A stretch of 64,000 nucleotides of DNA from Xanthocytophaga agilis (GTDB taxonomy: Bacteria; Bacteroidota; Bacteroidia; Cytophagales; 172606-1): positions 186,001 to 250,000 of the forward strand of contig NZ_JASJOU010000013.1 in the NCBI RefSeq assembly GCF_030068605.1, in the 5' to 3' direction. Under the pieces are notes generated by a model, which saw nothing but the letters and a program-made list of their open reading frames with translations, was not told the DNA's origin and searched no databases. Both the position numbers and the translations under genes were made by a program. Shown here piece after piece: positions 37,252-38,626 of this stretch. Each line of letters opens with the position of its first letter. Position 1 is the first letter of the stretch.

Positions 37252-37368
37252 GATTAGTTCCGGAATTTTCTATTTGTTCCATTTTTGCTGATCAAATCCT
37301 TTGCCAATTCTATAAAACCCCACCAGAGCGCTTCAAAGTAGTTTTCTGGAAAAATGGCCCAGTAGAGA

Positions 37369-37405
37369 TGTTCTAAAACGGACACATCATGTACTAAAAC
37401 GAACA
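37369..37405. promoter_or_regulatory. Tandem TGT-N10-ACA boxes upstream of the PadR gene
   Basis: Two nearly identical sites, TGTTCTAAAACGGACA (37369-37384) and TGTACTAAAACGAACA (37390-37405), repeat every 21 bases, two helical turns. The TGT/ACA half-site pair resembles sites described for PadR proteins. They lie 118-154 bases upstream of the PadR start and may control that operon. The gap 37252-37762 also carries the uORF and promoter listed next. Confidence 0.5.
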
Positions 37406-37579
37406 CTGATAGACAAGAGCAAAAAAAACGCAGAGCATGAAAGCACAGTGGACAAACATCATAATTGAATCCCACTTCACTTTGATAATACAGGAAATCT
37501 TACAAGATCTATGAGTGGCTATTATCAGTATGTTAAAAAAAATTTACGCATATGTTATGAAATTCCAGTTGAAGTAATT

Positions 37580-37587
37580 TATATTTG
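37580..37587 (+). promoter_or_regulatory. -7 box before the Cys-rich uORF and PhyH gene
   Basis: TATATTTG matches TAnnTTTG. Transcription would begin near 37594 and give a leader of about 170 bases containing the uORF. A -33 TTG at the usual distance is not seen. Confidence 0.4.
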
Positions 37588-37615
37588 CATATAATCTCTA
37601 TAAAGTTAATAGACT

Positions 37616-37678
37616 ATGAAAACGAATACTATAAATTTATTTTTTCATTTTTTGTCTGGCTACCGATGTTGTTGCTAA
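37616..37678 (+). CDS. Candidate leader peptide ending Tyr-Arg-Cys-Cys-Cys
   Basis: A 20-codon ORF (MKTNTINLFF then HFLSGYRCCC, stop TAA). It ends in three consecutive Cys codons TGT-TGT-TGC just before the stop. Four bases after the stop a 7-bp hairpin begins (TAAGCAG 37683-37689 with CTGCTTA 37699-37705). The ORF lies between a -7 box and the PhyH dioxygenase gene, 84 bases upstream of its start. The layout suits a translational sensor of cysteine or charged tRNA-Cys, as known for Cys-rich leaders in other bacteria. The peptide itself is too short for domain evidence. Confidence 0.45.
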   Translation: MKTNTINLFFHFLSGYRCCC

Positions 37679-37762
37679 CTACTAAGCAGACTCTAATACT
37701 GCTTATCCCAAGAATTATTAAGTACAACATTAATTAGTATCTATCCTTAAAAGAACACTATC

Positions 37763-38575: not shown

Positions 38576-38626
38576 AAACCTCATCCATTTCAAATAACTA
38601 TTTGTTATTTGAAATGGATGAGGTTT
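38576..38626. terminator. Bidirectional terminator, 23-bp stem
   Basis: Perfect stem 38576-38598 with 38604-38626 (AAACCTCATCCATTTC core) and loop TATTT. It lies between the convergent PhyH and sigma-54 regulator genes. Confidence 0.9.

Follow-up and report, generated by a model that had tools for sequence, protein, structure and literature searches.

Leader peptides that rely on cysteine codons are already described in mycobacteria and in Rhodobacterales. The mycobacterial poly-cysteine leaderless short ORFs, in work attributed to Canestrari (2020), reportedly act as a cysteine-responsive attenuator of operonic genes. The uORFC-8-2 leader before cysS in Rhodobacterales has tandem Cys codons and, in the accessible part of its description, is thought to sense charged tRNA-Cys (PMC8632094). 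Leader-peptide attenuation has also been proposed before amino-acid biosynthesis operons of Flavobacterium psychrophilum, according to the accessible text on that species (PMC9723704). Among the literature matches listed, none described poly-Cys leaders in Bacteroidota.

The window, which is the whole 64,000-nucleotide stretch of DNA analyzed here, is contained in the 9.77-Mb genome of Xanthocytophaga agilis (G000). The initial annotation had noted a 20-codon ORF with a Cys-Cys-Cys end in the leader of a PhyH gene, and both the upstream ORF (uORF) and the gene are confirmed (Table 1). The uORF encodes MKTNTINLFFHFLSGYRCCC and ends in a TAA stop at 37676-37678. The best explanation, held at a probability of about two thirds, is a cysteine-sensing leader peptide in which a shortage of Cys-tRNA would stall ribosomes in the Cys run and raise PhyH expression without a terminator. 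The PhyH gene is probably switched by cysteine supply, and the interpretation in the initial annotation is partly supported.

Table 1. Coordinates of the leader, the PhyH gene and adjoining features in the window.
Feature	Position	Strand	Comment
Putative promoter element TAnnTTTG, TATATTTG	37580-37587	+	Recurs 6-10 nt before the palindrome
Candidate operator common to sulphur genes, CTATAAAGTTAATAGA	37598-37613		Palindrome match
Leader uORF	37616-37678	+	ATG at 37616; 20 codons; three Cys codons at the end
Cys codons TGT TGT TGC, conserved, putatively regulatory	37667-37675	+	Runs of at least three in 77/80 leaders (best 80 of 256)
Spacer from Cys run to PhyH	37676-37762	+	C 21%, G 8%
7-bp hairpin TAAGCAG/CTGCTTA	37683-37705	+	From the initial annotation; not a conserved part
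PhyH-family Fe/2-oxoglutarate dioxygenase, 268 aa	37763-38569	+	PF05721, E 1.3e-17
Terminator-like hairpin after PhyH	38578-38624	+	In the terminator list, both strands

Orthologues conserve the uORF, its Cys run and a nearby palindrome. The PhyH protein was used to scan the genome_contigs collection (84,980 species, each with one genome), and the best 80 of 256 loci were kept. These are Xanthocytophaga flavus and 79 others at 72-78% identity (72-100% overall), mostly from Pedobacter, Mucilaginibacter and Flavobacterium. In 77 of these best 80 leaders, an ATG opens a uORF that contains a run of 3-8 Cys codons; runs of at least four occur in 61 of the 80 and the longest has eight. Examples are MSNKTNLFYFPPVPNHSPMRMCCCCA in Pedobacter (L195) and MSSKRNMFNFPKSQMHANMRMCCCCCCSCC in Flavobacterium (L214). 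As a control, runs of at least three F, Y, H, D, K, Q or E were counted and occur in 0/80 leaders each, and those of N in 1/80. The exceptions among the 80 are X. flavus (two Cys), L218 (leader largely N) and L219 (none). The proposed Cys-codon leader peptide is therefore conserved, in 77/80 leaders against 0-1/80 for the controls, and the absence of the ORF from orthologous leaders, which the initial annotation had named as evidence against its own reading, was not observed. Both cysteine codons are used in the runs (245 TGT, 125 TGC) and both occur at run positions 1-7; position 8 has TGC only (n=5).

The Cys run appears to be held while the rest of the peptide drifts under at most weak constraint. 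The 12 codons before each run were compared in 267 related pairs differing at 1-10 bases, which gave 227 synonymous and 839 non-synonymous codon differences. With so little of the remaining peptide conserved, the result fits a regulation in which only the codons matter. Base differences before the run number 545 at the third codon position, 406 at the first and 447 at the second; the third position changes only slightly more, so this count does not prove translation of the part before the run. Among the best 80 leaders, the positions of the uORF ends range from -127 to +43, counted from the PhyH start. In seven loci (six Flavobacterium and one [Flexibacter] sp.) the uORF passes the run and extends 43 nt into PhyH, out of frame with it.

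A tree built from 119 PhyH proteins places those of the window and X. flavus in one group with the proteins of two Flammeovirgaceae MAGs (99/88), and the 77 poly-Cys loci form the remainder of a larger clade around this group. One of the MAGs (L219), on the sister branch of the window PhyH, has the palindrome and lacks the Cys uORF. A separate PhyH lineage belongs to a genus of the same order (g29), which we take to be Spirosoma. It has CC or CCC uORFs in 8/29 loci and no such uORF in 21/29, a count that omits L158 at a contig end. The poly-Cys label requires at least three changes on the tree (shuffled mean 31.8), so gain or loss of the poly-Cys uORF took place repeatedly. Because of their relatedness, the 80 loci weigh less than 80 independent events.

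Within the order Cytophagales alone, the Cys uORF looked like chance. The GYRCCC-coding motif occurs once in the G000 genome. The pattern YRCCC followed by a stop has 8 matches in 291 genomes of the order versus 5 for a backwards control, and the window copy is the only ATG-led free-standing ORF among the 8. The whole leader DNA, searched in 98 genomes, was found only in G000 and in X. flavus (G001), the remaining matches listed being short. Homologues in the order at 54-61% identity (L003-L009, L012, L014) lack an upstream uORF with three successive Cys. The initial annotation had looked to the same peptide in other Cytophagales leaders; the exact peptide turned up in no other genus, and it is the Cys run alone that is common to orthologues. 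The orthologues outside the order altered the view of chance. That a random ORF ended in three Cys by coincidence would agree with the lack of an independent copy of the peptide or leader in the order genomes searched, but 77/80 orthologous leaders versus 0-1/80 controls leave this explanation a negligible probability; it is refuted for the class and survives only as the relic reading considered below.

Two other searches were set aside. Matches to RCC before a stop (with SCC before a stop) in two genomes numbered 52 versus 37 for the control in G000 and 37 versus 42 in G034, and none was convincing among the 30 of 89 inspected. Among cysD leaders (25 loci), a uORF ending RCCS in G004 and one reading MRCCRL in G003 are probably due to chance, since relatives from the same two genera (G006; G005 and G007) have no such uORF and there is no palindrome before cysD there.

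The sister genome is that of X. flavus YF14B1 (Cytophagales, Rhodocytophagaceae; also listed as X. flava), and its PhyH protein is identical to that of the window. Its uORF encodes MKANTINLFFHFLSGYRCCS, in which the third Cys is replaced by Ser (RCCS) so that two consecutive Cys are left. The leader in Xanthocytophaga may be a short or a weakening representative of its class. It is possible, though rather unlikely, that the leader in this genus is a decaying relic whose Cys run no longer regulates, the operator alone being at work, with functional orthologues elsewhere. The loss of the third Cys in X. flavus agrees with decay, as do the three base differences between the two species' uORFs, which fall in two codons and change both amino acids. 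A run of three is also short within the 3-8 range, and the sister branch L219 has no Cys uORF. Decay is opposed by the two tandem Cys codons that the Rhodobacterales cysS leader uses, in the accessible part of its description (PMC8632094). Both Xanthocytophaga species retain the open frame, with its stop 84 nt upstream of PhyH, as well as the promoter element and the palindrome, and the g29 leaders also manage with CC or CCC. A cysteine-sensing leader peptide, perhaps weakened, is preferred for the window as well.

The element TATATTTG ends 28 nt before the uORF ATG. It matches TAnnTTTG, presumably the Bacteroidota-type -7 promoter element, and would place a transcript start near 37593. The pattern CTAYWAANTNNATAGA describes the palindrome, which lies near the uORF start with at most 0, 1 or 2 mismatches in 53, 69 and 77 of the best 80 of 256 PhyH leaders, respectively; a reversed-sequence control gave 0, 2 and 15 of 80 (330 nt). 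Of 81 leaders, window included, 74 have a plus-strand palindrome at no more than two mismatches, and TAnnTTTG stands 6-10 nt before it in 63 of these 74, with 0 in a control interval 80 nt upstream. An RNA hairpin was considered for the palindrome. Its position flips, being upstream of TAnnTTTG at cysH and downstream at PhyH, and therefore a DNA site fits better.

Two observations were made further upstream. The two Xanthocytophaga species do not differ at any of the 116 bases of 37506-37621, a segment that starts about 110 bases ahead of the uORF and reaches its second codon; 37333-37505 has 24 differences between them. Judged by this identity, further regulatory sites may lie in 37506-37621. 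Two direct copies of TGTYCGTTTTAGWACA (37369-37384 and 37390-37405, minus strand), 21 bp apart, are located upstream of divergent padR and MacB/FtsX permease genes (37251-34280), and exact matches occur nowhere else in the genome. The paired copies are possibly a PadR operator.

The palindrome is also associated with sulphur genes. An exact copy is located 38 nt before cysH (cysH-cysD-cysN) in G000 and G001. A search of six genomes gave 39 rows versus 10 for a backwards control, with two sites counted on both strands and 13 rows inside predicted genes. Intergenic copies lie before or beside (up to ~470 nt) cysH in G000 and G001, PhyH in G000, G001, G450 and G513, and TonB-dependent receptors in G000, G001, G004 and G513. 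Others accompany a sulphatase (G513), a pyridine-nucleotide oxidoreductase with a 2Fe-2S protein (G450), a rhodanese-thioredoxin protein (G000, G001) and an amino-acid permease (G004); the remaining intergenic copies in the six genomes have no clear sulphur link. One copy per kind of neighbour was put to Pfam, and the G001 copies and cysN were named by likeness. In 20 cysD loci (257 kb) there are 3 exact palindromes versus 0.03 expected, with no exact match in 17/20 loci. The third exact match, in G034, is 11 nt before a TauE-family gene, which is followed by a Cys/Met-metabolism enzyme, one more gene and the cysH-cysD-cysN set. Since the palindrome also occurs before cysH-cysD-cysN and near other sulphur genes, PhyH is tied to them, and we infer that the palindrome marks a sulphur regulon that includes PhyH. 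The suggested role of PhyH in sulphur metabolism is in this way indirectly supported. A literature search on an Rrf2/CymR-type operator gave no lead.

The 7-bp hairpin described in the initial annotation is present, with a 9-nt loop and -6.9 kcal/mol, four bases past the uORF stop. As a part of the device it did not stand, since it is not conserved, is one pair shorter (6 bp) in X. flavus and is not matched by any excess of structure in orthologous leaders. It has no T-run behind it and is absent from the terminator list, and there is no terminator on the plus strand of the window between uORF and PhyH. Rfam found no RNA family in the window at the gathering threshold, and NCBIfam gave no match for the four uORFs tested.

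Classical trp-type attenuation, with competing hairpins and an intrinsic terminator, agrees with a run of regulatory codons in a leader and with terminator-like sites between run and PhyH in 6/79 leaders, window included (e.g. L205, L207). Since these 6 sites compare with 2.2 expected and folding from run to PhyH has a median z of +0.59 over 79 leaders, the leaders do not form a trp-type device. In Flavobacterium, most of these stretches fold more weakly than their shuffles (z +1.1 to +3.4, with one locus at -0.2), and the window hairpin lacks a T-run. Attenuation of this type is therefore improbable. The composition of the spacer is more uniform: C exceeds G in 78/78 spacers of leaders with a run of at least three (window included). 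In the last 60 nt before PhyH, counted without the masked L218, C exceeds G in 79/79 leaders versus 114/222 control genes in the same loci, and is at least twice G in 67/79 versus 36/222. Such a C-rich, G-poor spacer fits Rho-type termination, or no more than an open initiation region, and as a composition bias it is not proof of Rho.

For the cysteine-sensing leader peptide, the following sequence of events is proposed. Transcription would start at the TAnnTTTG promoter, overlapped by the sulphur-regulon operator, and the first reading frame of the transcript would be the short uORF, whose useful content would be its Cys codon run. With plentiful Cys-tRNA, ribosomes would clear the run and finish the uORF, and PhyH would stay low. 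With Cys-tRNA short, ribosomes would stall in the run and PhyH expression would rise. Given that both a terminator and a conserved hairpin are missing, the most likely output would be Rho-type termination in the weakly structured spacer, or else a block of PhyH initiation by the ribosomes that finish the uORF, as the overrunning uORF in seven loci suggests. Stalling as the on-signal is favoured because of these seven overlaps, in which finishing ribosomes would hinder PhyH and stalled ones would free it.

Poly-Cys leaders are also found before other genes. The flanks of the best 80 of 256 PhyH loci contain 540 predicted genes and 690 leader sORFs, including 10 further sORFs with CCC. Eight of the 10 (seven Mucilaginibacter and MAG L234) precede a ~380-aa protein that is present in 12/80 loci and has no Pfam match (L207 copy). 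These eight leaders are in L207, L221, L223, L227, L229, L234, L241 and L248, at locus position ~1530-1870 on the minus strand. The other two precede an AhpC/TSA protein and a TonB receptor. The palindrome occurs in the 180 nt scanned around the uORF start of all 10 at no more than two mismatches, and of 5 at no more than one; the reversed PhyH leaders, for comparison, had it at the looser limit in 15/80 over 330 nt. Cys run and palindrome thus tend to occur together. At L234:6022-6102, a uORF ending DCCCCR is located 103 nt before an AhpC/TSA-family gene, with the palindrome at 1 mismatch.

The MRMCCC pattern has 18 matches in 395 Bacteroidota genomes versus 1 for the control: 6 are PhyH leaders, 2 (L270, L271) precede a TonB receptor and the remaining 10 contain no convincing leader. 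L270 and L271 come from two genomes of one other genus. In both, a uORF with the end CHFYMRMCCCF precedes a TonB-dependent receptor, and no palindrome accompanies it; the receptor was identified by Pfam for L270 and by likeness for L271. In G513, which has a Flavobacterium-type PhyH leader, PhyH is the sole clear leader among the CCCC matches listed, and the other short ATG-led CCCC frames among them lie inside longer predicted genes.

These leaders bear on the idea that the peptide itself is the product, either a RiPP precursor modified by the neighbouring dioxygenase or a binder of metal or thiol. A Cys-rich peptide does adjoin a 2OG oxygenase and a short-chain dehydrogenase (SDR) gene. Its length, N-terminus and number of Cys vary, however, with little purifying selection outside the Cys run; seven frames continue into PhyH, and similar Cys runs stand before TonB receptors and an AhpC/TSA gene. 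A functional peptide product is thus very improbable, and codon sensing is preferred.

The window PhyH scores 65.2 bits for PF05721 versus a gathering score of 22. An HxD...H iron site and a 2OG arginine are the residues expected in the PhyH family. In 22 sequences H140, D142, H216, H222, R235 and R236 are invariant and are candidate iron/2OG residues. The structure model (pLDDT 85.3) matches 2OG oxygenases with Z up to 21.1; since it matches them broadly, no substrate follows. EctD, PHYHD1, EvdO1 and FtmOx1 have the fold and the conserved Fe/2OG residues in common with the window PhyH, at an identity to known 2OG oxygenases of no more than 22% among the fold matches listed. No characterized orthologue was found in the sequence and fold matches.

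An SDR match is found on the same strand in 68/68 full-length loci and in 75/80 of the best 80 of 256 overall, and in the X. flavus locus the SDR is further downstream. A CDP-alcohol phosphatidyltransferase and a GtrA protein are nearby in 43/68 full-length loci. A more specific proposal, which is doubtful, is that a cysteine attenuator without a terminator, placed under the control of a sulphur-regulon operator, drives the PhyH-SDR pair, and that PhyH is a sulphur-limitation enzyme of membrane-lipid remodelling (e.g. replacing or recycling cysteine-derived sulphonolipids) and not of sulphonate uptake. PhyH may instead serve in sulphonate scavenging; the initial annotation had suggested that it might oxidize a sulphonate or thiol compound. 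A literature search on PhyH and sulphonate gave nothing on PhyH among the matches listed. Downstream, the 20-bp hairpin at 38578-38624 has T-rich sides and is located between PhyH and a convergent sigma-54 activator gene; 7 bases are missing from the X. flavus copy.

The Cys leader is a physiological clue to the function of the PhyH enzyme, and together with the palindrome it provides a sequence handle on sulphur control in Bacteroidota. The arrangement of a row of Cys codons before PhyH recurs, often with longer rows, in many related soil and water bacteria. The leader, in which as many as eight Cys codons follow one another, is conserved before this uncharacterized dioxygenase in Flavobacterium, Pedobacter and Mucilaginibacter, and it is a likely case of codon sensing without a terminator or conserved hairpin.

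In the broad sense, the locus resembles known leader peptides. A short ORF with a codon run for one amino acid is located between a promoter-like element and the gene in 77/80 leaders, and the regulatory codons are conserved with the rest of the peptide free. It has the short ORF with a Cys run in common with the mycobacterial poly-Cys leaders. These belong to another phylum and are leaderless, whereas the PhyH uORF would begin about 20 nt into its transcript; the PhyH leader, unlike the mycobacterial system, is also linked to a palindromic candidate operator and to a PhyH gene. The F. psychrophilum leaders belong to the same phylum and, in the accessible text, were proposed to exert leader-peptide control, but they are among structured 5' regions (PMC9723704), whereas the PhyH leaders of Flavobacterium mostly fold more weakly than their shuffles. 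Measured against the accessible description of uORFC-8-2, the PhyH leader falls outside that class: uORFC-8-2 has two stems and a terminal U-run forming a terminator and controls cysS, whereas no conserved stem or terminator was found in the PhyH leaders and the controlled gene here would be a dioxygenase (PMC8632094).
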